Positions 15,266 through 34,607 of a DNA stretch of 64,000 bases are shown in pieces. A model generated the notes under the pieces. It made no database searches, was not told where the DNA came from, and saw only the letters and a program-made list of their open reading frames with translations. Position numbers and translations under genes: made by a program. The number at the start of each line of letters is the position of its first letter. The first letter of the stretch is position 1. Location of the stretch: contig NZ_PDWR01000005.1 of NCBI RefSeq assembly GCF_010211755.1, forward strand, positions 62,001 through 126,000, in the 5' to 3' direction. The stretch is from Pseudoxanthomonas sangjuensis. Lineage in GTDB: Bacteria > Pseudomonadota > Gammaproteobacteria > Xanthomonadales > Xanthomonadaceae.

Positions 15266-15358
15266 GTCCGCGCTCAAGCCATCCGCTTGGGCGCGAGCTT
15301 ACCGGCCCCGCACGGGCCGTTCAAATACGCACGGCGCCGGCCCTTGCCGGGCGTTGGC

Positions 15359-16093
15359 TCAGTGCGCGTCGACGAAATCCGCCACCGCCTTGATGTCCGC
15401 CTCGCTCAGCGACTTGGCCACGCCTTGCATGATCTTCGCATTGCTGGTCTTGCCGCGGGCGCCGCTCTTGAAATCGTGGAGCGCCTTGGCGACATAGGTC
15501 CCGGACTGGCCCTGCAGGCGCGGAATCGTGGCCCAGGGCGGTCGCGGCTGCGTGGTGTTGACGTCGGCATCCGAACGCGGGCCCTTCCCGTTGGCGCCAT
15601 GGCAACCCTGGCACGGGGGAATGCCGCGGGACGGATCGCCATCGCTGAAGAGCCGTCCACCCGGCGAGGCGGCAGCGGCGCCCGCGCCCGGCTTGGGAGG
15701 GAGCGACGCGTAATAGGCGGCGAGGTTGCGCATCTCGGCATCGCCCAGGGAAGCGACCAGCGGACCCATGACCGGATCGCTGCGCTCCCCGTCCTTGAAC
15801 GTCTTCAGCTGCACGTAGAGATAGGTCGCCGATTGCCCGGCCAGATCCGGGAACGTCGGTGCGATGCCGAGTCCGTTGGCGCCATGACATGCGCTGCAGA
15901 CATTCGACAGCGCCTTGCCGGCCTGGACGTCGCCGGAGATCGGCTGCTGCCGGCGCACATCGAGGAAGGCCCCGGGCGCTTTCGGCGCGTTGCCGTCGCC
16001 ATCGGCCACGGCCGCCGCCGTGGCGGCAAGGGTGACCGCCAATCCCCCGGTGGCGAACGCGATCAGGTGCAGGGCTCGCTTCGAAAACCACAT
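15359..16093 (-). CDS. Periplasmic diheme cytochrome c (c4-like)
   Basis: The product is 244 aa with a Sec signal peptide (residues 1-31) and two CXXCH heme sites, CSACH (66-70) and CQGCH (161-165). Each lies in a class I cytochrome c domain with a downstream Met ligand candidate (PVMG near 107 and KIMQG near 220). The two-domain layout matches cytochrome c4-type electron shuttles. It is last in the operon with the MtrB-like barrel (11 bp away) and the decaheme cytochrome, so it probably carries electrons between the inner membrane and the conduit (inference). Confidence 0.9.
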   Translation of the reverse strand: MWFSKRALHLIAFATGGLAVTLAATAAAVADGDGNAPKAPGAFLDVRRQQPISGDVQAGKALSNVCSACHGANGLGIAPTFPDLAGQSATYLYVQLKTFKDGERSDPVMGPLVASLGDAEMRNLAAYYASLPPKPGAGAAAASPGGRLFSDGDPSRGIPPCQGCHGANGKGPRSDADVNTTQPRPPWATIPRLQGQSGTYVAKALHDFKSGARGKTSNAKIMQGVAKSLSEADIKAVADFVDAH

Positions 16094-16104
16094 GATTCCA
16101 CTCC

Positions 16105-18753: not shown

Positions 18754-18779
18754 GACGGTGCCCCTGCGATAAGGACAGG

Positions 18780-19937: not shown

Positions 19938-20006
19938 CGAACCGTCCACCTGCGTTCCGCAGGGATGGACGAACGCCATCCCCGGGCAATGAAAGGACTT
20001 GTTGCG

Positions 20007-20085
20007 GGTAGGTGCCGGCCGCGCCGGGAAAAGGTTGCATCGCCAGCGCGAATGCAACTTTTCGCCCCCTCCCGCGGCACCTACC
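20007..20085. repeat. Long hairpin element 1 (79 bp inverted repeat, 11-nt loop)
   Basis: Two 34-nt arms face each other. The outer ends GGTAGGTGCC (20007-20016) and GGCACCTACC (20076-20085) are perfectly complementary. The inner ends AAAAGGTTGCAT and ATGCAACTTTT are nearly so, around the loop 20041-20051. It ends 7 bp before the Shine-Dalgarno sequence of the methyltransferase gene and lies 69 bp from the decaheme cytochrome start. A closely related element occurs at 31804-31878. It could be an operator, a 5'-UTR structure or a REP-like repeat. Confidence 0.8.
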
Positions 20086-20107
20086 GGCATTCGAGGAGGC
20101 GCATGAC

Positions 20108-20992
20108 ATGACGGGAACCCGCATGCCCGAGACCGCGGGCGGCGTCGCGACGGATTCCGGCGAGCGCGGCGCCGGGGCCGCCGCCGCAGCGGACGCGGCG
20201 CAGTTGCACGACACCCAACTCGCCTTCGACAGCGTGGCCGCCGACTACGACGGCCCGCGCGGCAACAACGAGCTGATCCAGCGCATGCGGCACACGCTCC
20301 GGGAAGTCGTGTGCCGCGAGCTCCCGCCGGGATCGAGGCTGCTGGACCTGGGTTGCGGCACCGGCATCGATGCGCTCGGGTTCGCGCAACTCGGCTATCC
20401 GGTCGTCGCCACCGACTGGTCGCCGGGCATGGTCGCGCGCACCGAAGCGCGCATCGCCGGCGCTTCCCTGCCGGTGCCCGTGGCCGTCAGGCAGCTGGGC
20501 ATCCACCAGCTTGCCGCCCTCGATGGCAGCTTCGACGGCATCTACTCCAACTTCGGACCGATGAACTGCGTCCCGGACCTGGCCGCGACCGCGGACGAAT
20601 GCGCGCGCCTGCTGGCCCCGGGCGGGGTCCTCGTGTTTTCGGTGATGGGCCGGATCTGCCCATGGGAACTGGGTTACTACGCGCTGCGCGGCCGCTTCGG
20701 GCGGGCCGCCGTGCGCGCCGCGCGCGGTGCGACGCCGGTGGGCATGAACCGGCACACGATCTGGACGCGGTACTACCTGCCGCGCGAGTTCCACCGCCAT
20801 TTCGCGGCGCGGTTCGAGTTGGCCGGCTACCGTGCGCTGAGCCTGTTCATGCCGCCACCCTACCTGGTGGACTTCTACCGGCGCCACCCGCAATTGTGCG
20901 ATCGCCTGGGCCGGCTCGACGATTATCTTGGCGAATGGCCGCTGCTGCGCGACATGGGCGACCACTTCCTCATGGTGATGCGCCGGCGCTGA
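20108..20992 (+). CDS. Class I SAM-dependent methyltransferase (operon A, gene 1)
   Basis: The product is 294 aa. The SAM-binding motif I LLDLGCGTGIDALGF begins near residue 78, followed by an acidic motif-II position (VVATDWSPGM). A Pro/Gly-rich segment LLAPGGVLVFSVMG is near 172-185. The C-terminal part (DFYRRHPQL...DYLGEWPLLRDMGDHF) is typical of small-molecule or lipid methyltransferases, but the substrate is unknown. GAGGAGG at 20093-20099 with 8-nt spacing fixes the ATG at 20108. It is first of six tightly spaced genes and sits directly behind hairpin element 1. Confidence 0.85.
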   Translation: MTGTRMPETAGGVATDSGERGAGAAAAADAAQLHDTQLAFDSVAADYDGPRGNNELIQRMRHTLREVVCRELPPGSRLLDLGCGTGIDALGFAQLGYPVVATDWSPGMVARTEARIAGASLPVPVAVRQLGIHQLAALDGSFDGIYSNFGPMNCVPDLAATADECARLLAPGGVLVFSVMGRICPWELGYYALRGRFGRAAVRAARGATPVGMNRHTIWTRYYLPREFHRHFAARFELAGYRALSLFMPPPYLVDFYRRHPQLCDRLGRLDDYLGEWPLLRDMGDHFLMVMRRR

Positions 20993-20995
20993 GGC

Positions 20996-22228
20996 ATGGA
21001 CGGCGCGCCCGCCACGACCGGGATCGTCCTGCACGGCGCCGCCGTGGTCACGCCGGCGGGCATCGCGCAGGCGCCGTTGCCGCTCCGTGCGGGCCGGATC
21101 GCCGCCGTCGCGGGCACGCGCGTTCCGCGCCTCGCGCTCGACGGACACCTCGTATTCCCGGCGCTGGTCAACGCGCACGACCACCTGCACGTCAACGCCG
21201 TCCCGCTGCTGCCCGCGCCTGGGCCGTTCCGCAACAGCTACGAATGGATCGAGGCCTTCAAGGCGCATTTCGCCGAGCCGGCGGTGGCGGCGGCGCTCGC
21301 CGTGCCGAAGGACGTGCGCCTGCGCCACGGCGCGCTGAAGAACCTGCTCGCGGGAACGACCTGCGTGGCGCACCACGATCCCTGGCATCCGGTCTTCGAC
21401 GCGCCGGACTTCCCCGTCGCCGTGCTGCGCGAGCATGGCTGGGCCTACGCGCCGGGCTGGCCCGGCTACGGGCCGGACGTGCGGCGCAGCTTCCTCGACA
21501 CGCCGCCCGACCGCCCGTGGATGATCCATCTGGCGGAAGGCACCGACGCCGTGGCCCGGGCGGAACTGGCCGGGCTCGAGGCGATGGGATGCCTGGCGCC
21601 GAACAGCGTGCTGGTGCATGGCGTGGGCCTGCGCCCGCAGGACGTGGAACGCGTGATCGCGCGCGGCGCCGCCGTGGTCTGGTGCCCGTCGAGCAACCAC
21701 GCCCTGCTCGGCGCGACGCTCGATCCGCGACCGCTTTGCGCGGCGGGCCGCCTCGCCCTCGGCACCGATTCGCGACTGAGCGGCGCGCGCGACATGCTCG
21801 ACGAGATGCGCGGCATCCTCCTGCGCGGCGAACTCGGCCCGGCGCAGCTCCTGGAGATCGCGACCACCGCGGCCGCGCGCATCCTGCGGCTGCCCGGACG
21901 CGGCGACCTGTCACCGGGCGACCATGCGGACCTGATCGTCGTGCGCGACGATCGCGGCGCCGGGCCCCATGCGCTGGCGGGCCTTCATCGCAGCGAAATC
22001 CGCGCGGTCGTGCGCGACGGCACGCCGTGCATCGCCGACCCCGACCTCGCCGACTGGTTCGCGCTCGCCGGCATCGACGCCGTGCCGGCAACGCTGGACG
22101 GCAAGCCGAAGCTGCTGGCGCGCTGGCTGGCCGATCCCGAAGTCGCGGCGCTCGAACCCGGACTGGCACTGCATGCCGACGCGGGCTTGCGACGCCACGC
22201 GCCGATGCCCATGGCGGGGAGTCGCTGA
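20996..22228 (+). CDS. Metal-dependent amidohydrolase/deaminase (operon A, gene 2)
   Basis: The product is 410 aa. A small N-terminal beta-sandwich precedes the TIM barrel. Metal-ligand signatures in order: NAHDHLH (H61, H63, H65), HLAEGTD (about 176-182), VLVHGVGL (about 202-209) and LGTDSRLSG (about 257-265). This matches the cytosine-deaminase/chlorohydrolase branch of the superfamily. The product could hydrolyse a C-N bond or deaminate a nitrogenous intermediate. It starts 3 bp after the upstream methyltransferase stop, and its stop overlaps the next start (TGATG). Confidence 0.8.
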   Translation: MDGAPATTGIVLHGAAVVTPAGIAQAPLPLRAGRIAAVAGTRVPRLALDGHLVFPALVNAHDHLHVNAVPLLPAPGPFRNSYEWIEAFKAHFAEPAVAAALAVPKDVRLRHGALKNLLAGTTCVAHHDPWHPVFDAPDFPVAVLREHGWAYAPGWPGYGPDVRRSFLDTPPDRPWMIHLAEGTDAVARAELAGLEAMGCLAPNSVLVHGVGLRPQDVERVIARGAAVVWCPSSNHALLGATLDPRPLCAAGRLALGTDSRLSGARDMLDEMRGILLRGELGPAQLLEIATTAAARILRLPGRGDLSPGDHADLIVVRDDRGAGPHALAGLHRSEIRAVVRDGTPCIADPDLADWFALAGIDAVPATLDGKPKLLARWLADPEVAALEPGLALHADAGLRRHAPMPMAGSR

Positions 22229-22926
22229 TGGCCGGCGCGATCATGCTCGAACCCGCGGCGGCGTATTCGCTGTGGGCGCCCAGCTACCCGCCGCACGCCC
22301 ACAACCCGGTGATGCAGGCCGAAGAGCGCGCCATGCTCGCGCTCATGCCGGAAGCACTGCACGGCCAGTCCGTCCTCGACGCCGGCTGCGGCAGCGGGCG
22401 CTATCTGCTGCATGCACTGCACCGAGGCGCGGCGCGCGTTACCGGCGTGGACCTGTCGCCGGAAATGCTGGCGCGCGCCGACACCGCCTTGCGCGATGAA
22501 AGTCGCGAAGTCCCCATCGCGCTGCTGGCCGGAAGCATCGACGCACTGCCTGTTGCCGATGCCTGCGCGGACCTGACCGTGTGCGGCCTGGTGGTCGGCC
22601 ACCTGCAGGAACTGCGTCCGTGCCTGGCGGAACTGCAACGCGCGACCCGGCCGGGCGGCATCGTGCTGTGCAGCGACGTGCATCCGATCGGGCACGCGCT
22701 CGGCTGGGTGCGCGACTTCAAGTCCGGCGGGCAACGCTACGCCGTGCGGCACACGCAACACCTGTACGGCCACTGGCACGACGCCTGCGCCTCGCTCGGG
22801 CTGCGCATCGAGCGGGTGCGCGAGCCGATGCTGGATCCCGCCGACATTCCCGCGGATGCGCACTTCGACCGCACCGCGCTGGAAGTTCCCGTCGCCCTGG
22901 TGCTGCAACTGCGACGCGAGCGCTGA
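22228..22926 (+). CDS. Class I SAM-dependent methyltransferase (operon A, gene 3)
   Basis: The product is 232 aa. Motif I VLDAGCGSGRYLLHAL begins near residue 49, with motif II VTGVDLSPEML. The later RATRPGGIVLCSDVHPIG is typical of BioC/UbiE-like enzymes. The N-terminal YSLWAPSYPPHAHNP resembles the substrate-facing cap of malonyl-ACP O-methyltransferase relatives, but this is only a likeness. ATG 22228 overlaps the upstream stop and has GGGGAG upstream inside the amidohydrolase gene. Confidence 0.85.
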   Translation: MAGAIMLEPAAAYSLWAPSYPPHAHNPVMQAEERAMLALMPEALHGQSVLDAGCGSGRYLLHALHRGAARVTGVDLSPEMLARADTALRDESREVPIALLAGSIDALPVADACADLTVCGLVVGHLQELRPCLAELQRATRPGGIVLCSDVHPIGHALGWVRDFKSGGQRYAVRHTQHLYGHWHDACASLGLRIERVREPMLDPADIPADAHFDRTALEVPVALVLQLRRER

Positions 22927-22944
22927 CCAGGAGACCCGGAACCC

Positions 22945-24465
22945 ATGCCGCCGATGCCACGCACCCTGCTGATCAACCCGACGATCGCCTCGCGGCGCAG
23001 CGCGCGGTTCCCGCTGGCCCTGCTGCACCTGTCCGCGGCACTGGAACGCAGCGGCGCCGGCAGCAGCCGGATCATCGACGGCAACGTCGACCGCGACTTC
23101 ATCGACGCGACCTTGCATGCGCTCGAACAGGAGCGCTTCGACCTGGCCGGCATCAGCGTCATGGGCGGCCCGCAGCTGGCCCCGGCGATCGCCGTTTCCC
23201 GCGCCATCCGCGAACGCTTCCCGCAGGTGCCGATCGCCTGGGGCGGCTACTTTCCCACCCTCAATACCGCGGCGGCGATCGCCTCGCCCGATGTCGACTA
23301 CGTCGTCCGCGGGCCGGGCGACGAAACCCTGCCGGAACTCGTCGCCGCGTTGCGCGGCGAAGGCGCGCCGGCGCTGGAGCGGATTGCCGGGCTGTCGTGG
23401 AAACGCGCCGGGGGCATCGTGCACAACCCGGCCCGCGGCATCCCGGTGCCCGCCGACGGGGCCCGGCTTCCCTACGAACTGCTGGGCGACCCGCGCCGCT
23501 ACCTGGCGCGCACCTACCTGGGCGAGCGCACCGTGGCGCACCAGGCCGCGACCGGCTGCCGCTTCCGCTGCACTTTCTGCGGGGTGGCGGCGATGTACGG
23601 CGGCGCGACCCACCTGTCGAGCGCAGCGCGGCTGGAACGCGACCTCGGCTACTTCAAGCACGAACTCGGCGCCGATTCCGTCCAGTACTACGACCACAAC
23701 TTCTTCGACCGCGAACAGGACATGGTGCCGCTGCTCGAAGTCATGGCCCGCTTCGAAATGCCCTGGTGGTGCTACGCCCGCGCGGATGCGCTGCTGGGCC
23801 TGTCGGCGCGTTCCTGGGAGCTGGTGCGCAGGAGCCGCCTGCGGATGGCGTACATCGGCGCCGAATCGCCCAACGGGCAGATGCTCAAGGACATCCGCAA
23901 GGGCACGCGGCCGGACCAGACCGTGGAAGTGGTGAAGTTGTGCAAGCGCCAGGGCGTGATCCCGGAACTGTCGTTCATGGTCGCGCCGCCGGAAAACACC
24001 GAGGAAGAGACCGAACGCACTTTCGCGTTCATCCGCGAACTGAAGCGCATCAATCCGGAGGCGGAGGTGATCGTCTACGTCTACACCCCGCTGCCGGACG
24101 AGAGCCGGCACGAATCCGACCGCCGCCGGCGCGCGCCCGTCGCGATGCGCGACCTCCACGGCCAGCCCGTGGCGTTCCCGAAGACGGTCGAGGAATGGGC
24201 CGAGCCGCGCTGGATCGACTATGCCTGCCACGCCGATGCGCCGTGGCTCGACGAGAAGCTGCGCCGGCGCATCCATGATTTCGTGACGGTGCTGCGTTGC
24301 CGCTATCCGACGGTGCAGGACCTGCATTCGCCCGCATGGGCCAAGCGCGGTTTGCGCGCCATGGCCGGCTGGCGTTACCGCTTCGGGAAGATCGACCGCC
24401 CGTGGGAACTGGAACTCGCCAGCCGGCTGGTGCGCCTGCGCATGCCGCAGGTATCGGGGCTCTGA
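22945..24465 (+). CDS. B12-binding-domain radical SAM protein 1 (operon A, gene 4)
   Basis: The product is 506 aa. The N-terminal region (about 5-130) has the Rossmann-like B12-binding-domain pattern of class B radical SAM enzymes (TLLINPTIA, LAGISVMGG, PIAWGGYFPTL, DYVVRGPGDETL). It lacks an obvious DxHxxG base-off motif. The radical SAM cluster ligands are C205-x3-C209-x2-C212 (GCRFRCTFCGV). The barrel continues with YIGAESPNGQ and a C-terminal domain of about 120 aa. The reaction could be a methylation, ring contraction or C-C bond formation on an unknown substrate. It starts 18 bp after the previous gene. Confidence 0.88.
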   Translation: MPPMPRTLLINPTIASRRSARFPLALLHLSAALERSGAGSSRIIDGNVDRDFIDATLHALEQERFDLAGISVMGGPQLAPAIAVSRAIRERFPQVPIAWGGYFPTLNTAAAIASPDVDYVVRGPGDETLPELVAALRGEGAPALERIAGLSWKRAGGIVHNPARGIPVPADGARLPYELLGDPRRYLARTYLGERTVAHQAATGCRFRCTFCGVAAMYGGATHLSSAARLERDLGYFKHELGADSVQYYDHNFFDREQDMVPLLEVMARFEMPWWCYARADALLGLSARSWELVRRSRLRMAYIGAESPNGQMLKDIRKGTRPDQTVEVVKLCKRQGVIPELSFMVAPPENTEEETERTFAFIRELKRINPEAEVIVYVYTPLPDESRHESDRRRRAPVAMRDLHGQPVAFPKTVEEWAEPRWIDYACHADAPWLDEKLRRRIHDFVTVLRCRYPTVQDLHSPAWAKRGLRAMAGWRYRFGKIDRPWELELASRLVRLRMPQVSGL

Positions 24466-24480
24466 GCGCGGACCGCCTGC

Positions 24481-25617
24481 GTGCATGTCGTCCAGGCCAA
24501 CCTGTTGCCGGTGCCGGAAGGCTGGATGCATGCCGATGTCCTCCGGCAATGGCACTCGCTGGTGGACATCGCCGAGATCGCCGCGAGCGGCGGCGTCCGC
24601 GTCTCGGTGCTCCAGGCAGCGTCGCGCGAGGATCGCATCGTGCGCGACGGCATCGAATACCGCTTCGTCGACGTTTCCGAAGCGAAGGGAGCGCCGGAAC
24701 GCAGCCACCGCCTCGCCGCCGCGTTGCAGGAGCTCGGGGCCGACGTCCTGCACGTGCAGGGCCTGGCGTTCGGCGGCGATGCGTTTGCGATCTCGCGCCG
24801 GCTCCCGCGGTTGCCGATCCTGTGCCAGGACCACGCCGACCATCCGCCAAGCCGGTGGCGGCCGTGGCGGCGGCTGCAGTGGCGTCGCTGGTTCGCCGCG
24901 GTCTCCGCGGTTTCGTTCACCGCGCCGGAGCAGGCGCAGCCGTTCATCGACGCCGGCGTGTTCGCGAAGCGGATGCAGGTGTTCGCCATCCCCGAATCCA
25001 CCAGCCGCTTCACGCCCGGGGATCGCGGGCTGGCGCGCGCCGCGACCGGGCTGCATGGCGATCCGTGCGTGTTGTGGGTGGGGCACCTGGCCCGGGGCAA
25101 GGATCCGCTGGCCGTCATCGACGGCATCGCGCGGGCCGCGTTGCGGCTGCCGGGGCTGCAATTATGGTGCGCCTACGGGACGGCCCCGCTGCTGGACGCG
25201 GTCCACCAGCGCATGGCGGCGTACCCGCAACTCGCCGGGCGCGTGCATCTGCTCGGCAAGGTGCCGCACGCCAGGATCGAGTCGTTGATGCGCGCCGCCG
25301 ACCTGTTCGTGTCCGGCAGCCACGCGGAAGGTTCCGGATACGCCCTGCTGGAAGCGCTTGCCTGCGACGCCACGCCGGTGGTCACCGACATCCCGCCATT
25401 CCGCGCACTGACCGGCGACGGCGCCATCGGGCGGCTGTGGCCGCCGGGCGATCCGGAACGCCTGTCCGGGGCGCTGGTGGACGCATGGTCGAACCGGGCG
25501 CCACCCGGCCGGGTGCGCGATCACTTCGATGCGACCCTGTCGTTCGCCGCGGTGGGGCGTCGATGGGCGGATGCCTATGCGCGGGTGGTCGACAGCCATG
25601 CGCGGGGTGCGCGGTGA
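24481..25617 (+). CDS. GT-B glycosyltransferase, group 1/GT4-like (operon A, gene 5)
   Basis: The product is 378 aa, starting with GTG (MHVVQANLL). The N-terminal Rossmann domain has DVLHVQGLAFGG. The C-terminal donor-binding domain begins at CVLWVGHLARGKDPLAVIDG (about 196-215). The signature region ADLFVSGSHAEGSGYALLEALAC contains the E-x7-E spacing of GT4-type retaining enzymes. The donor and acceptor are unknown. It lies 15 bp after the radical SAM gene, and its stop overlaps the next GTG by 4 bp. Confidence 0.85.
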   Translation: MHVVQANLLPVPEGWMHADVLRQWHSLVDIAEIAASGGVRVSVLQAASREDRIVRDGIEYRFVDVSEAKGAPERSHRLAAALQELGADVLHVQGLAFGGDAFAISRRLPRLPILCQDHADHPPSRWRPWRRLQWRRWFAAVSAVSFTAPEQAQPFIDAGVFAKRMQVFAIPESTSRFTPGDRGLARAATGLHGDPCVLWVGHLARGKDPLAVIDGIARAALRLPGLQLWCAYGTAPLLDAVHQRMAAYPQLAGRVHLLGKVPHARIESLMRAADLFVSGSHAEGSGYALLEALACDATPVVTDIPPFRALTGDGAIGRLWPPGDPERLSGALVDAWSNRAPPGRVRDHFDATLSFAAVGRRWADAYARVVDSHARGAR

Positions 25618-26741
25618 AACTCGCGCTGATGGTCCCGGGCGGCGTGGATCGCAGCGGCGAGCAGCGCGTGATTCCGGCGTTGCTCGCCCTGATCGAGCGA
25701 CTCGCGCGGCACCACGAGGTGCACGTGTTCGTCTTGCGGCAGGAGGCGACGGCGGGCGAATGGATGCTTGCCGGCGCGCGCATCCACAACATCGGCGAGG
25801 GCTGGACCCGCCTGCGCGCCATCCGCGAGGTCCGCCGCGAGCACCGGCGGGCGCCGTTCGACACGATCCACGCCATCTTTTCCGGTTCCTGCGGCCTGTT
25901 CGCGGTGGCGATGGCCAGGCTCCTGCGCGTGCGCAGCCTGGTCCATGTCGCGGGTGGCGAGCTCGCATCCCTGCCCGAGATCGCTTACGGGGGGCGCCGG
26001 CGTTGGACCGGCCGGCTGCGCGAAGCGCTGGTATTGCGCGCCGCCGATGCCGTCACCGCCGCCAGTGCGCCGATCCTCGCTTCGTTGCAAGACCTCGGGA
26101 TCGCCGCGCAGCGGGTGCCATTGGGAGTCGATCTCGCGGCCTGGCCGCCTTTGCCGCCTCGCCGACGCAGCGCGGGGCCGGCGAAACTGATCCATGTCGC
26201 CAGCCTCAACCGGGTCAAGGACCAGGCGACCCTGTTGCGGGCGCTGGCGATCCTGGCGGCGCGCGGACAGGCGTTCACGCTGGACGTGGTCGGCGTGGAC
26301 ACCTTGCATGGCGAAGTGCAGGCGCTGGCCGGCGAACTCGGGCTGGAGCGCCGCGTCCGCTTCCATGGCTTCCGGACGCAGCGCGAACTGCGTCCGCTGC
26401 TGGCGTCGGCCGACCTGCTGGTGATGTCGTCGTTGCACGAGGCCGGGCCGCTGGCCCTGCTGGAAGCCGCGGTGGCGGGCGTGCCCGCGGTCGGCACGGC
26501 GGTCGGGCATTTCGCGGAGTGGTCGCCTTCGGCGGCCCTGGCCGTCCCCGTCAGGAATCCGGACGAAATGGCGAATGCCATCCAGCGGGCGCTTGCCGAC
26601 GAGGAACTGCGGTTGCGGCTGGCGGAGGAAGCGCAGCGTCGCGCGATGCGGGAGGATGCCGATTCCACCGCCGAGGCGTTCCAGGCCTTGTATCGAACGA
26701 CTCCACAAAACGGAAGGCATTATCGATCCGGCCCAAATTGA
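25614..26741 (+). CDS. GT-B glycosyltransferase, group 1/GT4-like (operon A, gene 6)
   Basis: The product is 375 aa with a GTG start that overlaps the previous stop. The N-terminal domain begins KLALMVPGGVDRSGEQRVIP, with a Gly-rich acceptor loop. The donor domain starts at LIHVASLNRVKDQATLL (about 198-214), and the signature region is DLLVMSSLHEAGPLALLEAA. It is distinct from its neighbour in sequence, so two different sugar transfers are likely. Its stop codon abuts the palindrome that separates it from the convergent sulfotransferase gene. Confidence 0.87.
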   Translation: MKLALMVPGGVDRSGEQRVIPALLALIERLARHHEVHVFVLRQEATAGEWMLAGARIHNIGEGWTRLRAIREVRREHRRAPFDTIHAIFSGSCGLFAVAMARLLRVRSLVHVAGGELASLPEIAYGGRRRWTGRLREALVLRAADAVTAASAPILASLQDLGIAAQRVPLGVDLAAWPPLPPRRRSAGPAKLIHVASLNRVKDQATLLRALAILAARGQAFTLDVVGVDTLHGEVQALAGELGLERRVRFHGFRTQRELRPLLASADLLVMSSLHEAGPLALLEAAVAGVPAVGTAVGHFAEWSPSAALAVPVRNPDEMANAIQRALADEELRLRLAEEAQRRAMREDADSTAEAFQALYRTTPQNGRHYRSGPN

Positions 26742-26753
26742 ATACGAACTTCA

Positions 26754-26852
26754 CCGTTCGTACTGAGCGCAGGCGCGTAGCGCCGGAGTCGAAGGACGTG
26801 GCGAGGCTGTCCTTCGACTCCGCGCCTTCGGCGCGACGCTCAGGGCGAACGG
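26754..26852. repeat. Convergent-gene palindrome (99 bp)
   Basis: The arms are CCGTTCG...CTGAGCG...GGAGTCGAAGGAC (26754-26797) and GTCCTTCGACTCC...CGCTCAG..CGAACGG (26809-26852), around the 11-nt loop 26798-26808. Short internal palindromes lie in each arm. A second, outer pair ATACGAAC/GTTCGTAT extends the symmetry to the stop codons of both flanking genes (26741 and 26879). It resembles dispersed intergenic palindromes common in high-GC proteobacteria. It may act as a bidirectional terminator. Confidence 0.8.
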
Positions 26853-26878
26853 AGACTTTGGACTGTTCGAGGTTCGTA

Positions 26879-28147
26879 TCAATGGAGACCACGTCGCCTC
26901 GGGAGCGCGGAAAGGAACCGCACCCGACGCGCCCTGATGCGATCGACCATCCAGCCGGCGCGTATCCACGCCTGCAACAGTCGCCGGCGCAACGCGGGCA
27001 GCGGCACCAGCGGATAGCCGAGCTTTCCGGCAGGGTCGGCCAATATCGCGCTCAATCGCTCGCGATCGCGTCGCGTCAGCGCATTCAACGCACCCTCCGC
27101 AGGCTGGCGGTTCAATTTCCCCGCCGCGTTGTTGCTGTCGAAAGAGCTGTTGCTCGGGGTGGGAATGCCGTTCGCGGTGGGCCGCATCATGACGGGCAGC
27201 GGCTCGATCCCGAGAAAAGACGCCATCCGGCGGACACTGCCCGCCGTGTCGTCGAGCAGGTCCTCGTAGCGGACGAGCAGGTACGCGTCCGACGCGGGCC
27301 GGTCGGAGCGACGGGCCGCTTCCCGGTACGACAGGTGCATCTGGCGAAGGATCCGGCGCGCGTCGCCCGACGGATGGCCGGCATTCCGTGCGGCCTGGCG
27401 GCTGGATGCGTAGACCGCGCAAGGATGGCGGACGACATGGAGCAGTTTCGCCTCGGGGAATTCGGCCGTCAGGCGCCCCAGGAAACGCTCGTTCGCGGGT
27501 GTTTTTTCCACCCATCGCTGCAGGGCGTGCGCGGTGCCGAACCCCGCCGTGCAATGCGCGTAGGCAAGCGCGATCGCGACCAGCGGCCAGGACGTCGTGC
27601 GCGGCCCGAGCCGCGTTTCGACCAGCGGCCACCATGCCAGCAGGGCGCGCATGAATCCGACATACGGCGAGTTTTCCGCCGACGAGCGCCCGAGCAGCCA
27701 GTAGGGGGACTGGTTGATCGGGTTGGCAAGCCTGCGCAGCCACTCGCAGCCGAGGAATGGCAGCCATGCCTCCGCGGGCAAGCGCTTCAGGTGCCAGGCG
27801 AAATTGGTGAGCATGGTGCCTTCGGCGGGAAGCACGGAGAGCGCCGGATGGTGGTCGAGCAGGTCGCGCACCAGGGTCGTGCCGCTGCGGTGGGCACCGA
27901 AGACGAACACGGGCCGGCGCGCGATGGCGAACGCGTGCTCGATCTCGCCGGCAGCGAGGAGCGCGGGACCCGCCGATTCGGCAGCGGACCACACGGCATC
28001 GGACCACGCCGCCGCGGCCTGGCGCACCGCGCCCAGGTCGGTGACGCGCGGCCTTTGCAGCTGCCGGTCGAATTGCGCCTCGAGATGGACGATGTCCAGG
28101 GGATCGCATCCCGGGTATGCGCGTCGTCGGGGATCTGGCCGGTCCAT
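26879..28147 (-). CDS. PAPS-dependent sulfotransferase family protein (operon B, gene 4)
   Basis: The product is 422 aa. The 5'-phosphosulfate-binding loop GAHRSGTTLVRD is at residues 84-95, and the 3'-phosphate-binding region has HVVRHPCAVYASSRQ near 235. Both are hallmarks of the Sulfotransfer_3-type family. The N-terminal 75 aa form an extra helical segment. The predicted role is to sulfate a small molecule, lipid, sugar or peptide. It is last in the leftward operon B, 17 bp after the zinc-ribbon methyltransferase. The TGA sits at the outer edge of the palindrome. Confidence 0.88.
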   Translation of the reverse strand: MDRPDPRRRAYPGCDPLDIVHLEAQFDRQLQRPRVTDLGAVRQAAAAWSDAVWSAAESAGPALLAAGEIEHAFAIARRPVFVFGAHRSGTTLVRDLLDHHPALSVLPAEGTMLTNFAWHLKRLPAEAWLPFLGCEWLRRLANPINQSPYWLLGRSSAENSPYVGFMRALLAWWPLVETRLGPRTTSWPLVAIALAYAHCTAGFGTAHALQRWVEKTPANERFLGRLTAEFPEAKLLHVVRHPCAVYASSRQAARNAGHPSGDARRILRQMHLSYREAARRSDRPASDAYLLVRYEDLLDDTAGSVRRMASFLGIEPLPVMMRPTANGIPTPSNSSFDSNNAAGKLNRQPAEGALNALTRRDRERLSAILADPAGKLGYPLVPLPALRRRLLQAWIRAGWMVDRIRARRVRFLSALPRRRGLH

Positions 28148-28164
28148 GCGTGGCTTCGTCCCGA

Positions 28165-29097
28165 TCAGGCGTCTTTGCGGGCCACGTACAGGCGAAACCT
28201 CGAGGGTTCCCTGTGGCCGCGAAGTTTCGCCGCGAGAGGGCGCATCGCCCACGCCAGCCCGTACCAGGGGCGGTGGACTTCCCAGCGGATCGACAGCGCC
28301 CGCTGCATCTCCTGCAGCCACCCATCGGTCAGGAAACCGAGCATGGCGATCGAGTCGCCCGCCACGCCATGGCGCTGCAGGAAGGCGGCCTGTCGCTCGG
28401 CGAGCATCCTGCGTCCGTCCTCCTCGCGCGGGTACCAGGGCGTATCGCCGATGACCACCAGGCCGCCCGGCCTCACGCAGCGCAGCGCCTCGCGCAGGCT
28501 GGCCTCGGCGTCCTCGCTGTAATGGAAGGAAGCATTGAACACGGCGGCGTCGAACTGGTCGTCGGCGAACGGGAGCCGGTCGAAGCTGGCCTGGAAACGC
28601 GGGAACAACGCCGGCAACCGCGCCCGGTAATGGCGCGCGGCGCCCAACCCGTCGCTGTCGTTGGTGAGCAGGTCGACGGCGCAGGGACGATGGCCCGCGA
28701 GCGACAGGCGATAACTCATCCAGCCGTTGCCCGCGCCCAGGTCGAGGACCCTGCCCTTCGGCCGGTCGGGCAACAGGCGCCGCACGACGTAGTCGTGGCT
28801 GCGCGCCCTGATGCGCCATTGCGCGGGGTCCTTGCCGGAGACATCGCGATACGGAAGCTCCAGGTAGTAATCCCCGCAGTCGCTGCCACGACCTTCCGCC
28901 TTCCTGACCCGTTCGTAATCCCGGATGAAGCCGGCAAGGCGGAGCTGCGTTTCCGGCGGCAGCGCCCGCGCGATGCCGCGGCGGACCGTGATGGAAAACC
29001 CGCACGCCGCGCAGTCCGAAGCGGGGATGCCGGCGCCGCAACGGGGGCAGCGCAAGCGGATCCCCGCCGGCAATCGCTCCTCCTCCATTGCGTGCAT
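28165..29097 (-). CDS. SAM methyltransferase with N-terminal zinc ribbon (operon B, gene 3)
   Basis: The product is 310 aa. Four Cys (C17, C20, C29, C32 in CPRCGAG...CAACG) form a zinc ribbon. The methyltransferase core starts with VLDLGAGNGWMSYRLSLAG (about 119-137), followed by RCVRPGGLVVIGDTPW. A metal-ribbon plus methyltransferase arrangement is seen in RlmA-like enzymes and in many natural-product methyltransferases; this context favours the latter. The start ATG lies 2 bp after the upstream stop; an in-frame ATG at 29088 is an alternative. Confidence 0.83.
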   Translation of the reverse strand: MHAMEEERLPAGIRLRCPRCGAGIPASDCAACGFSITVRRGIARALPPETQLRLAGFIRDYERVRKAEGRGSDCGDYYLELPYRDVSGKDPAQWRIRARSHDYVVRRLLPDRPKGRVLDLGAGNGWMSYRLSLAGHRPCAVDLLTNDSDGLGAARHYRARLPALFPRFQASFDRLPFADDQFDAAVFNASFHYSEDAEASLREALRCVRPGGLVVIGDTPWYPREEDGRRMLAERQAAFLQRHGVAGDSIAMLGFLTDGWLQEMQRALSIRWEVHRPWYGLAWAMRPLAAKLRGHREPSRFRLYVARKDA

Positions 29098-29099
29098 GC

Positions 29100-30317
29100 T
29101 CAAGGCGCCAGGACCGGGGATTCCATGGCCGCGCGCACCGCATACAGCATGTCCATGCGCGGCACCGGCCGCGTCAACCAGCGCAGCGCGCGCCGGCCCA
29201 GGCTCATCGTGGGCCAGCGCTGGCCCTGCAGCCACAACTGCGTGCGCACCATGTCGTCGCGTTCCTGGATGGTTTCCTGCGACGGCCTGATGCGGTTCTT
29301 CAGGTAGCGGCCCGCGTCGCCGGCGGAGCGGGACCATTCCATGCCGGCCAACGGATGCAGCCACAGTTCGGAACAGGAGACCCGGGTCATCGTCTGGCGG
29401 CGCGAGAGCGTCCGCAGCAGGAGCGGGCACTGCCGCGAGAACCGCGCCAGCACGTCGCCGGGAACCGCGCCCGGGTAATAGCGGTCGACCATGCGCAACG
29501 GCGGCAGCGCCCACCAGAACGAACCGTCGTCGCGGCCGCCATCGACCTCGCGCCAGTCGTCCGCGGTCATCGCGGCGCACAGCAGGGCGATGTCGTGCAG
29601 GTGCATCAGGCGCAGGTTGCGGTTGCAGATGCTGCCGGCCGCATGCAGCAGCAGGTGGCTCATCAGGCCGCCGGTGGATGCGTAGCCGTTCAGGCCGGGC
29701 CGTGCGTCCGCCGGGTAGACGCGCCCGGTGACGTCGGCGACCGAGACCGGCAGCCGCTCCTGGATGCGGACGTGCAGCTCGATGTTGACCGGCATGTCCC
29801 AATGCTCGCCGAGGCCGGGCACGGGCTGGCTGTCGGCCGGCTTGAACACGCGGTGCTTCCATTGCGCGTACGCCTCCTCGTAGCCGATCGCCCGCAGCAT
29901 CGCGCCCGCCGCCCCGGCATCGCTTTCGCAAACCAGCAGGTCGATGTCGGCCATCGGGCGTTCGCCCTGCGCATACAGCCCCATGGCCTGCAGCGCCGAT
30001 CCCTTCAGGGCCACCACCGCCAGGCCGGCCGCGCGCGCGTCCGCATCGATGCGCTTCAGCATCGCCTTGATGTGCCGCTGGCGGCATTCGACATGCGCGT
30101 GCTGGTCGCGCAGGAAGCGCTGCCATGGGGTGTGCTGCCAGCGGCAGCGCCCGCTCAGCACGGGGGAAACGCCGTGCGCCGCGGCCACGGCCGACGCCAG
30201 TCGCCACTGGATGCCGTCCCATGCCGGCGTCTCCGTCCCCGGCCGCGCCAACTCCAGCGCCAGCGCCTCCGTGGCCCGCGACAGGCCGGCCTTAACCGTC
30301 TTGAGTGGCGGCAACAT
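29100..30317 (-). CDS. NTP_transf_5-like nucleotidyltransferase (operon B, gene 2)
   Basis: The product is 405 aa. The pol-beta-like nucleotidyltransferase core is visible as VVALKGSALQ (K105) followed by ERPMADIDLLV with D124-x-D126 as metal ligands. The long helical C-terminal region is typical of PF14907 proteins. Members are often found in RiPP (lasso-peptide-type) clusters and exosortase-type loci beside HprK-like kinases, and an HprK-like gene lies about 1.6 kb away here. The nucleotide and acceptor are unknown. GGAAGGGA just upstream is a strong ribosome-binding site. The start overlaps the radical SAM gene by 26 bp. Confidence 0.85.
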   Translation of the reverse strand: MLPPLKTVKAGLSRATEALALELARPGTETPAWDGIQWRLASAVAAAHGVSPVLSGRCRWQHTPWQRFLRDQHAHVECRQRHIKAMLKRIDADARAAGLAVVALKGSALQAMGLYAQGERPMADIDLLVCESDAGAAGAMLRAIGYEEAYAQWKHRVFKPADSQPVPGLGEHWDMPVNIELHVRIQERLPVSVADVTGRVYPADARPGLNGYASTGGLMSHLLLHAAGSICNRNLRLMHLHDIALLCAAMTADDWREVDGGRDDGSFWWALPPLRMVDRYYPGAVPGDVLARFSRQCPLLLRTLSRRQTMTRVSCSELWLHPLAGMEWSRSAGDAGRYLKNRIRPSQETIQERDDMVRTQLWLQGQRWPTMSLGRRALRWLTRPVPRMDMLYAVRAAMESPVLAP

Positions 30318-31797
30318 AGATCCCTTCCCGTGCAGGGTGCTTCGTCGGGGCGGCGGTGGCGCCGGGATTGCGGTGATCGCGCTCGCTGGCGATCAATGCG
30401 TCCCAGCACGCATCGAGGCCGATGCGGGCCTCGTGGTATTCCCGGGTCGCAAGGCGCTGCCGCGACTGCAGCAGTTCGACCTGTCGGTGCAACAGGTCGC
30501 GAAAGCGGCGGTAGAACTCCGAGTCGTAGGCGCCGCGGAACATCATGGCCAGGTCGCCGCTGTCCTTCCAGTGCGTTTTCCTGCCCAGCTGGGCCCTGAC
30601 TTGCTCGTAGAAGCGGGTGCCCGGGAGCGGATAGGAAACGCTGACCCCGATTTCGTCCGGCGCCGTGCGCGCCACCAGCGCGCGGGTCGCCAGCAGGTCC
30701 TCCAGCTGCTCGCCGAGGTATCCCAGCTGGATGAAGAAACCCACGCGGATGCCGTGCGCGCCGAGCCGCTCCCGCGCGGCGACCAGTTCCTCGATGGACG
30801 TGTCCTTGGACATCGCGTCCAGGATCCGCTGGCTCCCGCTCTCCGCCCCGATCCACGCCTCGACGCACCCCGCTTCCCGGAGCGCGGCGGCCATCCGTTC
30901 GCTGATCATGTTGGCGCGGATCTGGATGGTGAAAGGCACCGCGCCATCCAGTTCCGCGAGGCGCTCCGAGAACTCCCTGAGCCAGTCGACGCGGAAGCCG
31001 AAGATGTCGTCCGCCATCCAGATGTGGTCGGGCGCGTAGGCGCGCTTCAGGAAGCTCATCTCTGCGGCGACGTCGCGCGCGCTGCGTTGCGCGTAGTGGT
31101 TGCCCCAGATCGGCTTGGAACACCAGTTGCAGCGGAACGGGCAGCCCCGCGACGCCACCATGTTCAGGCTGAAATAGCCGTGCCGCTCCCGCCACAGGCG
31201 GCGATAGCGCTCGATGTCGACCAGGTCCCATGCGGCGTCGCCGGAGAGCTGGCGATCCGGCGGCAGCGCGCCCACCCGCGCCACTTCCGTGCGCCCATCC
31301 ACCAGGGACGCCACGCCGGAAACGCCGGAAACCCAATCCGCCGCAGCGACGTCCGGGTCGCGTTCGAGGCGCCCGACCAGCTCGCGCAGGGCGGCGATGC
31401 CCTCGCCGACCAGTACGGCATCGGCCCCGGCCTCGAGCAACCGCCCGGGCCGGTCCGAGGCATCCGAACCGGCGACCACGACCCGGGTCCCGGCCGCGCT
31501 TGCCATGGACACCATCCGGCAGGCGGCCTCGTGCATGCGATCGAGGCACATCTTGGTCAGGAAGTTGAAATTGTCCTCGTACAGGACGACCAGGTCCGGA
31601 TCCGCGCCGCGCAGCGCCTCCGCGTACGCTTCGACGCCATCGGCCAGCATCGCATCGAACAGCGTCACCTCGTGCCCCATCTGGCGCAGCATGGCCGCGA
31701 CCTGCAGGGTGGCGAGCGGCGGGTACGGCTTGCCGCGGTCCCACTGCTTCTGGTCGAAGCGGAGGAAATAGGAGTGGGCGAGCTGGATCCTGAGCAT
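30292..31797 (-). CDS. B12-binding-domain radical SAM protein 2 (operon B, gene 1)
   Basis: The product is 501 aa. The N-terminal B12-binding-like domain (about 1-135: LATLQVAAMLRQMGHEVTLFD, VVVAGSDAS, ADAVLVGEG) is followed by the radical SAM cluster C219-x3-C223-x2-C226 (RGCPFRCNWCSKP). Downstream motifs include WMADDIFGF and EAWIGAESGSQ. It differs clearly from the protein at 22945, so the two are not a recent duplication. ATG 31797 lies only 6 bp from hairpin element 2, and no clear Shine-Dalgarno sequence is visible. Confidence 0.88.
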   Translation of the reverse strand: MLRIQLAHSYFLRFDQKQWDRGKPYPPLATLQVAAMLRQMGHEVTLFDAMLADGVEAYAEALRGADPDLVVLYEDNFNFLTKMCLDRMHEAACRMVSMASAAGTRVVVAGSDASDRPGRLLEAGADAVLVGEGIAALRELVGRLERDPDVAAADWVSGVSGVASLVDGRTEVARVGALPPDRQLSGDAAWDLVDIERYRRLWRERHGYFSLNMVASRGCPFRCNWCSKPIWGNHYAQRSARDVAAEMSFLKRAYAPDHIWMADDIFGFRVDWLREFSERLAELDGAVPFTIQIRANMISERMAAALREAGCVEAWIGAESGSQRILDAMSKDTSIEELVAARERLGAHGIRVGFFIQLGYLGEQLEDLLATRALVARTAPDEIGVSVSYPLPGTRFYEQVRAQLGRKTHWKDSGDLAMMFRGAYDSEFYRRFRDLLHRQVELLQSRQRLATREYHEARIGLDACWDALIASERDHRNPGATAAPTKHPAREGIYVAATQDG

Positions 31798-31803
31798 GTC
31801 CGG

Positions 31804-31878
31804 GGTAGGTTCCCGGCGGCCGGCCAATGGTTGCCTGCGGGGGCACGGCAACTTTTCCGCGCCGAAGCCGCACCCACC
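31804..31878. repeat. Long hairpin element 2 (75 bp inverted repeat, 11-nt loop)
   Basis: The arms are 31804-31835 and 31847-31878, with an 11-nt loop at 31836-31846. The inner stem is GGTTGCC/GGCAAC and the outer stem is GGTAGGT/ACCCACC. The right arm carries GGCAACTTTTCC, matching GCAACTTTTC in element 1, and both elements have the same loop length and order of parts. It fills the divergent promoter region between operon B (start 31797) and operon C (start 31904). Confidence 0.78.
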
Positions 31879-31903
31879 GGTGCAAGGACCGAATCCCCGA
31901 GCG

Positions 31904-32887
31904 ATGCACAGCATGATGACCGCCAGACGGCCGTGCCTTGCCAGGCACAAGCAGCTCATGGGTGGACGGTTCCGCTTCCGCAGCGAAAGCGAGGCGCTGC
32001 TGGACGTGGTCGAAGCGGCCTACGCCGGGCACGCCCCGCACCGCTTCCCGCAGGCAGGCCCGGAGCTCGATGTCGAGTTGCGCCTGCTGCCGCGACGGAT
32101 GCCGGCGGCCGGCGAACCGCCGGCCGTCCGCACGCGACTGGACGGCGGCATCCTCTGCGGGATCATGGACGAGCACAATTACGTGCTGGTTTCGCCGCAA
32201 CAGCGCCGTGCGCAGGTCGTCGCATCGGCGGACATGCTCGACCATCCCTACCACCTGCGCTACGAGCTGGTCGAATTCGCGGTCTTTCTCCTGGCCGCGC
32301 GCTGCCAGGGCCTGGTGCCCGTGCATGCCGCCTGCGTCGGCCGCGACGGGCGCGGCCTGCTCCTGCTCGGCGAAAGCGGCGCCGGCAAGTCGACCCTCGC
32401 CCTGCACAGTCTGCTGCGGGGCCTGGATTTCCTTTCCGAGGACGCGGTGTTCGTCCGGCCGGACGGCATGCTGGCGACCGGCGTCGCCAATTTCCTGCAC
32501 GTGCACGCCGATGTCCTGCACGGCATCGGCGACGACGCGCGGCGCTGGATCGCCGGTTCGCCGGTGATCCGGCGCCGCAGCGGCGTGGAGAAGTTCGAGG
32601 CCGACCTGCAACGGGCGCCCGCGGGCACCCGCCTCGCGGCGACGCCCCTGCAACTGGTCGGCACGGTGATCCTTTCGCGGCACACAGCCGGCGGTTCCCG
32701 GGCGGAACTGGCGCCCGTGGCCCGCGAGGATGTCGCTGCCTGCCTCGTGGCCGACCAGGCCTACGCCATGGCCCAGCCGGGATGGCATCGCTTCGAACAA
32801 TGGGCCCTGGGATCGCCGGCCCATCGCCTGCAACGCGGTCCGCACCCGGGGAGCTCGGTCGATGCCCTGCAGCGACTCCTCGGCTGA
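31904..32887 (+). CDS. HPr kinase-like P-loop protein (operon C, gene 1)
   Basis: The product is about 327 aa. The Walker A is GESGAGKST (156-164), preceded by VPVHAACV (about 138-145), the usual strand before the P-loop in HprK-related proteins. The N-terminal 120 aa replace the normal HPr kinase N-terminal domain. No PTS gene is nearby. Such kinases occur in lasso-peptide and HPr-rel-A loci, where they phosphorylate a peptide or act in an unknown role. ATG 31904 is chosen; in-frame ATGs at 31913, 31916 and 31958 are possible because no strong ribosome-binding site is seen. It overlaps the ABC gene by 26 bp. Confidence 0.8.
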   Translation: MHSMMTARRPCLARHKQLMGGRFRFRSESEALLDVVEAAYAGHAPHRFPQAGPELDVELRLLPRRMPAAGEPPAVRTRLDGGILCGIMDEHNYVLVSPQQRRAQVVASADMLDHPYHLRYELVEFAVFLLAARCQGLVPVHAACVGRDGRGLLLLGESGAGKSTLALHSLLRGLDFLSEDAVFVRPDGMLATGVANFLHVHADVLHGIGDDARRWIAGSPVIRRRSGVEKFEADLQRAPAGTRLAATPLQLVGTVILSRHTAGGSRAELAPVAREDVAACLVADQAYAMAQPGWHRFEQWALGSPAHRLQRGPHPGSSVDALQRLLG

Positions 32888-34607
32888 CGAAGGCCGCATC
32901 GTGTTGCGCGCCTTCGCGGGCACGCTGACCGGCCGCGACTGGCTCCAGGTGGCGGCGTACGTCCTGGCATCGCTGCTGGCGGCGTTCGCCGGAAGCCTGG
33001 CGGCCCTGTTCCTCGTGCCGCTGATCCAGCCTGGGCCGGTGCTGCCGTTCGGCGGCGGCATCCTCGGTTCGCCCGGGAGCCTCGAGGCCGATGCGGCGCT
33101 GTTCGCGGCCGCCGCCGGCCTGTTCGCGCTGTCGCGATGGTCCGCGGCCTGCCTGGGCGCGCGGCTGGCGGCGCGCTACGGCATGTTCCTGCGCCGGAGG
33201 GTCCACGCGCGGCTGGTCCGCGCGAAGCTCGCTGCGCTGGCGGATTCGACCTCCGCCGAGATCGCCAACGTCCTCACCTATAACGTCGAAATCATCGTCA
33301 ATGGCTTCAATGCGCTGCTCCAGCTGCTGGTTGCGGTCCTCACCACCGTCGTGACGCTCGCATTCGCGTTCTGGGTGTCGCCGCCCCTGGTGCTGGCGTT
33401 GCCCGCGTTCGCGGCCCTGGCGTGGATGGCGACCAGCCTGTTCGGCCGCGAACAGTCGCGCATCGGCCGCCGGTACGTCGCCGACATGACCCGCCTGTTC
33501 TGGCGCGGCGAGGACTTCCCGCGGCGCTTGCGCCATGTCCGTTCGTTCGGGCGGCAGCAGGCCGATCACGCCGCCTATGCGGACATGGCGGCGCAGCTCG
33601 GGCGCGGCTACAGGCGCCGGTTGGAACTCGCCGCCCATGGACGCCTGCTGCTCGAGTTGCTGGCAACGGCCATGATCGCCGCGGCCTTCGTGCTGGCCCA
33701 TCGCTGGCATGGCATCGACCAGGCCGCGCTGGTCGCGGTGAGCCTGTTGCTGGGGCGCCTGTTGCCTTACCTGGCATTGACCCGGCAAGGCGTGCAGCAA
33801 CTGCGTTCGGCCATGCCGGCATTCGAGCTGTGGCAGCGCTATGTGTCGCTGGAGGCGGACCGGACGCCACGCGCGCATGACGCGGACGGCGATCTGCCCG
33901 CCCTGCGCATCAGGCGGATGCGCCTGCCGCGATCGCTCGTCTCCCTCGAGGTTCGCGACCTGTCCCTGGCGCCCGGCGAACTGACGCTGGTCTGCGGCGG
34001 CTCCGGCATCGGCAAGAGCTGCCTGGTCGACATCCTCTCGGGCATGATGGCGCCGGCGGAATTCGAGGCGGACATCGCCGGGCAGGAAATCGGCTTCGAC
34101 CGGTACCGGGCGCTCGTCGGCCGGAGCGCCTACGTCAGCCAGCAGGTCCGTCCCTGGCACGCGAGCGTGCGCGAAAGCCTGCTCTGGGCCGCGCCCGAAG
34201 CGAGCGAGGCGCTGATGTGGAGCGCGCTGGCCGATGTCGGCCTCGACAAGCGACTGCACAGGAGCGGGTACGGGCTCGACACCGCCCTGCAGGATTCCAC
34301 CAGCCGGTTCTCCGGCGGCGAGCTGCAGAGGTTGCTGCTGGCCCAGGTGCTGTTGCGGAAGCCGACGCTCGCCATCCTGGACGAAGCGACGGGAGCGCTC
34401 GATACCGCCTCGGAACGCGAGGTCCTGTCCACGCTGCGGATCCGCCTGCCGCGAACCGCCCTGGTCGTCGTGTCGCACCGGACCGGACTGGCGACGATGG
34501 CCGACCAGTCGCTGGAAATCGACGGCAGCGGCGTGGCGGCCGCGGTTCGCCATCGACAGTCCGCGGAACCGGGGCACGGGCCGGCCGCCCTGGCCCTGGA
34601 ACCCTAG
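32862..34607 (+). CDS. ABC exporter, fused permease-ATPase (operon C, gene 2)
   Basis: The product is 581 aa. About six transmembrane segments lie between residues 20 and 310. The ATPase has Walker A GGSGIGKSC (about 382), signature FSGGELQRLLLAQ and Walker B LAILDEATGALD. This is the half-size exporter layout used for peptides, lipids or glycoconjugates; no peptidase C39 domain is present. GGGGAG upstream with 8-nt spacing supports ATG 32862 inside the kinase gene. It probably exports the product of the cluster (inference). Confidence 0.9.
   Translation: MPCSDSSADEGRIVLRAFAGTLTGRDWLQVAAYVLASLLAAFAGSLAALFLVPLIQPGPVLPFGGGILGSPGSLEADAALFAAAAGLFALSRWSAACLGARLAARYGMFLRRRVHARLVRAKLAALADSTSAEIANVLTYNVEIIVNGFNALLQLLVAVLTTVVTLAFAFWVSPPLVLALPAFAALAWMATSLFGREQSRIGRRYVADMTRLFWRGEDFPRRLRHVRSFGRQQADHAAYADMAAQLGRGYRRRLELAAHGRLLLELLATAMIAAAFVLAHRWHGIDQAALVAVSLLLGRLLPYLALTRQGVQQLRSAMPAFELWQRYVSLEADRTPRAHDADGDLPALRIRRMRLPRSLVSLEVRDLSLAPGELTLVCGGSGIGKSCLVDILSGMMAPAEFEADIAGQEIGFDRYRALVGRSAYVSQQVRPWHASVRESLLWAAPEASEALMWSALADVGLDKRLHRSGYGLDTALQDSTSRFSGGELQRLLLAQVLLRKPTLAILDEATGALDTASEREVLSTLRIRLPRTALVVVSHRTGLATMADQSLEIDGSGVAAAVRHRQSAEPGHGPAALALEP

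Follow-up and report, generated by a model that had tools for sequence, protein, structure and literature searches.

A conserved locus with two B12-binding radical SAM enzymes in Pseudoxanthomonas sangjuensis, probably the tailoring half of a surface-glycan locus

Wzm/Wzt O-antigen loci can carry WbdD-type methyl/phosphate caps, the HPr-rel-A system (HprK_rel_A, TIGR04352) is associated with NTP_transf_5 and PqqD, and the products of psmK and psmN are an HprK-like and an NTP_transf_5 protein, respectively. The latter two genes form the kinase and nucleotidyltransferase pair of the pseudomycoidin lasso cluster (PMC9266682, in the part available). Here we analyse a cluster of twelve genes within a 64,000-nucleotide stretch of the P. 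sangjuensis genome (the window). Its counterparts in relatives are like Wzx/Wzy O-antigen, capsule and enterobacterial-common-antigen-like loci in carrying FdtA, DegT, a NeuD-type acyltransferase, a WzxE-like flippase, Wzz, glycosyltransferases and a variable tailoring slot. Unlike such loci, they share a conserved block made up of B12 radical SAM enzymes, an amidohydrolase, a PEPCK/HprK-fold kinase, an NTP_transf_5 protein and an extra ABC exporter, and Wzx, Wzy and Wzz are all missing from the window copy. The kinase, methyltransferases and ABC transporter recall Wzm/Wzt loci with WbdD-type caps, and in one relative (L153) part of the cluster lies beside Wzm/Wzt genes; however, the ABC protein of the window carries its membrane and ATPase domains on a single chain, its nearest models being CydC, CydD and MsbA. 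The kinase and nucleotidyltransferase pair resembles the lasso tailoring genes psmK/psmN and padeK (paeninodin), but the window's genome lacks PqqD and a transglutaminase-like protease, and no precursor was seen. The kinase is also a P-loop relative of the HPr-rel-A kinase, but at 42.1 bits against a cut-off of 200 we rejected its membership of TIGR04352; PqqD is also absent from the genome.

No account of the locus or its gene set was found in the open-licence literature, which is weak evidence because only that literature was covered. PMC11467524 concerns Pantoea and is, in the part available, unrelated to the locus; the available part of PMC11340318, on Sphingomonas, mentions neither HPr nor radical SAM.

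Gene content and family assignments

The initial annotation described twelve genes in three tightly spaced operons, and we find all twelve intact at 20108-34607 in that arrangement, separated within operons by 2-18 bp or overlapping. Operon A, on the forward strand, comprises the class I SAM methyltransferase MT1 (20108-20992, in an ORF of 20012-20992; PF08241, 5e-17), the amidohydrolase/deaminase-like protein AH (20996-22228; PF01979, 3e-15), a second class I SAM methyltransferase, MT2 (22228-22926, in an ORF of 20311-22926; PF08241, 5e-21), the B12-binding radical SAM enzyme rSAM1 (22945-24465; PF02310 and PF04055; motif CRFRCTFC) and two GT4-type glycosyltransferases, GT1 (24481-25617; PF00534, 1e-15) and GT2 (25614-26741; PF00534, 4e-27). 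A convergent spacer (26742-26878), repeat-like when read by eye, separates it from operon B on the reverse strand, which holds the sulfotransferase ST (26879-28147; PF13469, 6.5e-27), the methyltransferase MT3 with a Cys-rich N-terminus (28165-29097; PF08241, 1e-14), the NTP_transf_5 (MNT-fold) transferase NTP (29100-30317) and a second B12-binding radical SAM enzyme, rSAM2 (30292-31797; PF04055 and PF02310). Beyond a divergent spacer (31798-31903), presumed to be a promoter region, operon C encodes on the forward strand the PEPCK/HprK-fold kinase-like protein HPRK (31904-32887) and the ABC exporter (32862-34607, with a start at 32862 or 32904; PF00005, 1.5e-21; PF00664, 3.5e-11). To the left, on the reverse strand, an ECF sigma factor and its adjoining gene (13804-15277) are a conserved landmark of the locus and only putative members of the pathway.

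The family assignments of the initial annotation are borne out by Pfam scores above cut-off, with a single exception: HPRK matches Hpr_kinase_C at 26.0 bits, below the cut-off of 33.3. Its HprK-like character is nonetheless recovered by the predicted structure, which has the PEPCK/HprK fold, and by its P-loop. NTP combines the nucleotidyltransferase (MNT) fold with the NTP_transf_5 family score and metal-binding motif; a sequence search of solved structures returned nothing for it. Among the matches listed in an NCBIfam scan of ten of the proteins, none reached its cut-off. P-loop, radical-SAM and SAM-binding motifs were all found. In both rSAM1 and rSAM2 a B12-binding domain is joined to a radical SAM domain with CxxxCxxC, a motif present in 47/48 rSAM1 relatives and 80/80 rSAM2 relatives. 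These motif searches used loose regular expressions on partial matches, and the lower counts for AH (TD[ST], 17/66), HPRK ([ED]D[AD], 52/79) and MT3 (5/9) reflect poor patterns and are no sign of lost residues. The window contains no tRNAs and no Rfam families at gathering score, and four of its genes outside the cluster have no PADLOC match to defence families.

Synteny and co-occurrence in relatives

We examined 80 loci, the best 80 of 413 relatives and therefore biased to close kin. Nine core genes were considered, excluding rSAM1, ST and MT3, and 22 loci were set aside as not showing all nine, several being cut by a contig or stretch end. In the 58 others the order and orientation of operons A (MT1-AH-MT2-rSAM1-GT1-GT2), B (NTP-rSAM2) and C (HPRK-ABC) are kept without exception, which upholds the earlier proposal that the three operons form one functional unit. 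Their co-occurrence nevertheless has an exception among the incomplete loci: L153 keeps operons B and C, but where A would be it carries Wzm/Wzt/WbsX-type (O-antigen-type) genes. rSAM1 is absent from 23 of the 58 complete loci, every one of them Xanthomonas. Individual departures include L097, which has HPRK with no ABC homologue within 8.8 kb beyond it and no Wzz within 1.8 kb upstream of MT1; L042, with an ABC match of only 28%; and L095, where extra genes are inserted left of NTP and operon A was not seen within 8.8 kb. The left landmark is kept in 14/14 extended relatives, so the window locus occupies the same chromosomal site. A tree of 39 of the 80 loci plus the window was drawn from four proteins by a quick method with a midpoint root.

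At the start of the locus, relatives carry FdtA (PF05523, 155.8 bits), a DegT aminotransferase, a flippase (Wzx; PF13440, with 279.6 bits to the WzxE model, slightly below its cut-off of 325), a glycosyltransferase, a Wzy-like protein and Wzz (PF02706), as well as a NeuD-type acyltransferase above its cut-off. The Wzy-like protein has no Pfam or NCBIfam match and is named from its membrane-protein appearance and its position. Wzz is a neighbour of MT1 in relatives and lies upstream of it in 51 of the 55 loci with at least 1.1 kb of sequence there; none was seen in L133, but in L056 (genome G135), whose contig has the same length, it lies about 2 kb upstream of MT1. Locus sets L034-L070 and L091-L170 share genomes, and their counts are therefore kept separate. 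Across 250 genomes of the order, the 37 others with rSAM2 (E <= 1e-60) are exactly the 37 with the Wzy gene (E <= 1e-30), the window's genome being the only one with rSAM2 and no Wzy gene. Outside the order, rSAM2 was found in none of 369 genomes drawn from the class or 398 drawn from the phylum (E <= 1e-60); the search of relatives found one Nevskiaceae MAG (L150). Within the order, none of the five other genomes listed from the window's own genus has rSAM2.

The initial annotation took the sulfotransferase as a defining part of the cluster, which the comparison does not support: ST occurs in 4/80 loci and MT3 in 9/80, both as optional genes of a slot between GT2 and NTP. Across relatives this slot holds sulfotransferases, methyltransferases, an OafA-type acyltransferase, a flavin reductase or a glycosyltransferase, and we regard its occupants as interchangeable tailoring genes, which supports a glycan reading. 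ST of the window is 80-84% identical to four Rhodanobacter copies, and its dS against L099 is 0.36 compared with 0.60-0.97 for eight other genes, so it appears, from these sequence distances, to have been gained in the window lineage.

In the window's genome no match to the relatives' Wzy was found; Wzx was absent from the searched stretches of contig C55, with only a 22% match genome-wide, on contig C33; and other Wzz-type genes occur on C74 and, at cut-off, on C33. The window locus itself holds glycosyltransferases and sugar-type tailoring enzymes (GT1, GT2, methyltransferases and the sulfotransferase). The genes are under purifying selection: against L091 and L122, where 11 of them have a homologue, dN/dS is 0.17-0.42, and ST, which has none in these two loci, gives 0.26 against L099. 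Together with the family matches and motifs, these ratios indicate that the genes are selected and are not chance ORFs.

Function of the locus

From the coincidence of rSAM2 and Wzy in the same genomes and the polymer genes at the start of the relatives' locus, we hypothesize that the twelve genes are most likely the half of a Wzx/Wzy-type surface-glycan locus that assembles and tailors the glycan. Such a locus, belonging to Xanthomonadaceae and Rhodanobacteraceae, would serve an O-antigen, a capsule or an exopolysaccharide. The scaffold had been thought to be encoded elsewhere or of a new kind; the flippase, polymerase-like, chain-length and deoxyamino-sugar genes of relatives instead make a surface glycan most likely. 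The window organism most likely keeps the decorating half though the polymer-building half is gone; a part in glycan synthesis is here extrapolated from relatives, because its genome lacks their Wzy and a close Wzx.

We infer every reaction and substrate of the following scheme. FdtA and DegT of the relatives would synthesise a 3-amino-3,6-dideoxy sugar. A lipid-linked oligosaccharide would receive sugars from GT1 and GT2 and methyl groups from MT1 and MT2, and AH may remove an acyl, formyl or amino group, while rSAM1 and rSAM2 would make carbon-centred sugar changes (C-methylation or similar). HPRK may phosphorylate a hydroxyl and NTP transfer a nucleotidyl or phospho-sugar group to that same site, the sharing of one site being suggested by analogy. 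The slot enzymes, here ST and MT3, would add sulfate and methyl groups, and the ABC protein would take the product, or else an intermediate, across the inner membrane. Wzx, Wzy and Wzz of relatives would flip and polymerise the unit; since the polymer half is gone in the window lineage, what is made there is probably a short glycan left unpolymerised, or one polymerised by another locus.

That the genes make a small secreted non-polymer metabolite on a new kind of scaffold, exported by the ABC protein, with the relatives' glycan genes as mere neighbours, would explain why the window lineage retains them under purifying selection in the absence of Wzx and Wzy, but it is unlikely given the 37 genomes shared by rSAM2 and Wzy, the glycan-type slot genes, the two GT4 glycosyltransferases and the O-antigen export genes adjoining the L153 copy. 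Decay of the window locus after loss of the polymer half seems more improbable still: although no close Wzx homologue was found in four tested genomes of the window's Luteimonas-like lineage, the twelve frames are open with motifs retained, the dN/dS ratios are low enough to signal selection, and a sulfotransferase was apparently gained.

We consider it very improbable that HPRK, NTP and the ABC protein act on a peptide precursor in the manner of the paeninodin and pseudomycoidin lasso tailoring genes. The pseudomycoidin cluster does contain a kinase and a nucleotidyltransferase gene, and ABC transporters are not rare among lasso clusters (PMC9266682, in the part available), but the window's genome (G000) has 0 matches to PqqD and 0 to Transglut_core3, and on this basis we rejected a lasso or other RiPP reading. 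No spacer in the cluster exceeds 137 bp, and the Pfam matches of the twelve genes include no asparagine-synthase-like cyclase. Among five relatives tested, Transglut_core3 exceeded its cut-off in G202 and G145 and PqqD was present in G101, each of these genes being distant from the locus; two further relatives have weak, sub-cut-off Transglut_core3 matches.

Within the surface-glycan reading, operons B and C could tentatively be seen as an undescribed, portable glycan-decorating module, in which the PEPCK/HprK-fold kinase and MNT-fold transferase would place a phosphodiester-linked group on a sugar carbon-altered by B12 radical SAM enzymes. With its own ABC transporter, such a module might work with Wzy polymers (as in most genomes where it is found), beside Wzm/Wzt (L153), or from a locus that has no polymerase, as in the window lineage, where the outcome would be a short glycolipid bearing the decoration.

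To our knowledge, the chemistry of this locus, which is of surface-glycan type and common to Xanthomonas, Rhodanobacter, Dyella and Luteibacter, is unusual among glycan loci. Surface glycans control how such bacteria bind phages, form biofilms and make contact with hosts. The window lineage, with the tailoring half and no polymer half, and the Xanthomonas group lacking rSAM1 offer natural experiments in which the steps are separated.

Gene models and linkage of the three operons

All twelve genes of the cluster (20108-34607) were confirmed at the positions claimed for them in the initial annotation, and Pfam upheld the family assignments made there. The exception by sequence is the HprK domain of HPRK, which falls under the Pfam cut-off, although its predicted structure shows a PEPCK/HprK fold. 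The frame of GT2, absent from the initial ORF list, is supported by codon-position GC and a GT4 Pfam match; it starts at a GTG codon and overlaps the other glycosyltransferase gene, GT1, by 4 bp.

Searching 250 genomes of the same order, we found the B12-binding radical SAM enzyme rSAM2 in 38, the window genome included, with two families represented; it was not found in the five other same-genus genomes listed. Comparing the genes around rSAM2 in the other 37 genomes, we observed MT1-AH-MT2-(rSAM1)-GT1-GT2 facing NTP-rSAM2 in 35. In the two that deviate, MT1 is absent within the stretch examined (locus L068) or the contig ends (L070). HPRK and the exporter gene ABC come next, save in L036, where the contig ends, and L042, whose ABC is just 28% alike. 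From a named collection we took the best 80 of 413 loci, which belong to Xanthomonas, Luteimonas, Dyella, Luteibacter, Rhodanobacter, Frateuria and some MAGs; gene order and orientation agree in 58 of the 58 that show all nine tested core genes. Operons A, B and C thus co-occur, as first proposed, rather than lying scattered in other genomes. One informative exception to the linkage is L153, which lacks operon A; a Wzm fragment, a Wzt with its C-terminal domain and a WbsX-type glycosyltransferase fusion (10342-16938 of L153) adjoin its operons B and C.

Upstream polymer genes and the chromosomal site

The relatives' locus begins farther upstream than that of the window. Of eight upstream stretches read gene by gene, six contain FdtA, a NeuD-type acyltransferase, a glycosidase-like protein (weak matches only), a FemAB/GNAT-like protein and DegT, while two (L077, L084) have FdtA and DegT only. 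As a rule there follow a WzxE-like flippase, a GT2-family glycosyltransferase, a Wzy-like membrane protein and Wzz. The Wzy gene occurs in 37 of the 250 genomes, the same 37 that carry rSAM2 besides the window genome, where it has zero matches; the relatives' Wzx finds there a 22% match at most. Wzx has no match at E ≤ 0.001 in the genomes of L091, L092 and L122, the window's nearest kin, and is matched in the other four genomes of that search, one being the query's own source. Two other Wzz-type matches in the window genome (contig C74:80634 and, just at the cut-off, C33:122174) probably mark other polysaccharide loci.

An ECF sigma factor, possibly a regulator, and a neighbouring gene (13804-15277, minus strand) lie upstream of the locus in the window and in 14 of 14 extended relatives. 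Directly adjoining the locus are a cytochrome c, an MtrB/PioB-type outer-membrane porin and a multihaem cytochrome (15359-20090, minus strand), a candidate extracellular electron conduit. In one relative, L080, all three again lie upstream of the locus, in the opposite orientation (multihaem cytochrome 60%, porin 55%, cytochrome c 50%), and in L091 and L122 the cytochrome adjoins MT1, as in the window. Elsewhere in the window, a 1183-residue protein (983-4534, plus strand) had no Pfam or PADLOC match.

The tree groups the window with L091, L092 and L122 in a single clade (support 100), whose neighbour is Xanthomonas (95). Of the seven Xanthomonas rows, six have Wzy and Wzz, the seventh (L142) being cut. 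The simplest reading would be a single loss of the upstream genes on the stem of this four-member clade.

Backbone, optional genes and overall reading

The GT2-NTP interval is shorter than 400 bp in 45 of 75 named loci measured and exceeds 1100 bp in 18. The longer intervals contain methyltransferases, a sulfotransferase, an OafA-type acyltransferase, a glycosyltransferase or a flavin-reductase-like protein or, in a few cases, unrelated insertions. rSAM1 is absent from 23 of 58 complete loci, all Xanthomonas. Given this variation, ST, MT3 and rSAM1 look like optional genes, and MT1, AH, MT2, GT1, GT2, NTP, rSAM2, HPRK and ABC are the backbone. Of 78 named loci, 11 carry a peroxiredoxin-like gene that separates HPRK from ABC. 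In L148 (Xanthomonas phaseoli) NTP looks broken: its frame stops at 242 residues and it matches in two pieces. In L095 (Rhodanobacter), turned to place rSAM2 on the minus strand, the first 7 kb contain inserted genes left of NTP, VgrG-like ones among them, judged by eye from the sequence.

The sulfotransferase ST shares 80-84% identity with four copies from Rhodanobacter. Its dS against L099 (0.36) is lower than that of eight other genes compared with the same locus (0.60-0.97), which suggests a recent horizontal gain. The window's cluster appears to be still in use: eleven of its genes have a homologue in L091 and L122, and their dN/dS against these two loci is 0.17-0.42.

The cluster had been read as tailoring an orphan scaffold, encoded elsewhere or of a new kind. 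This was not borne out, and a glycan reading takes its place, because the relatives' locus carries Wzx/Wzy/Wzz-type genes. The locus is apparently of surface-glycan type, a known kind in a new form, whose conserved tailoring block appears to be undescribed.
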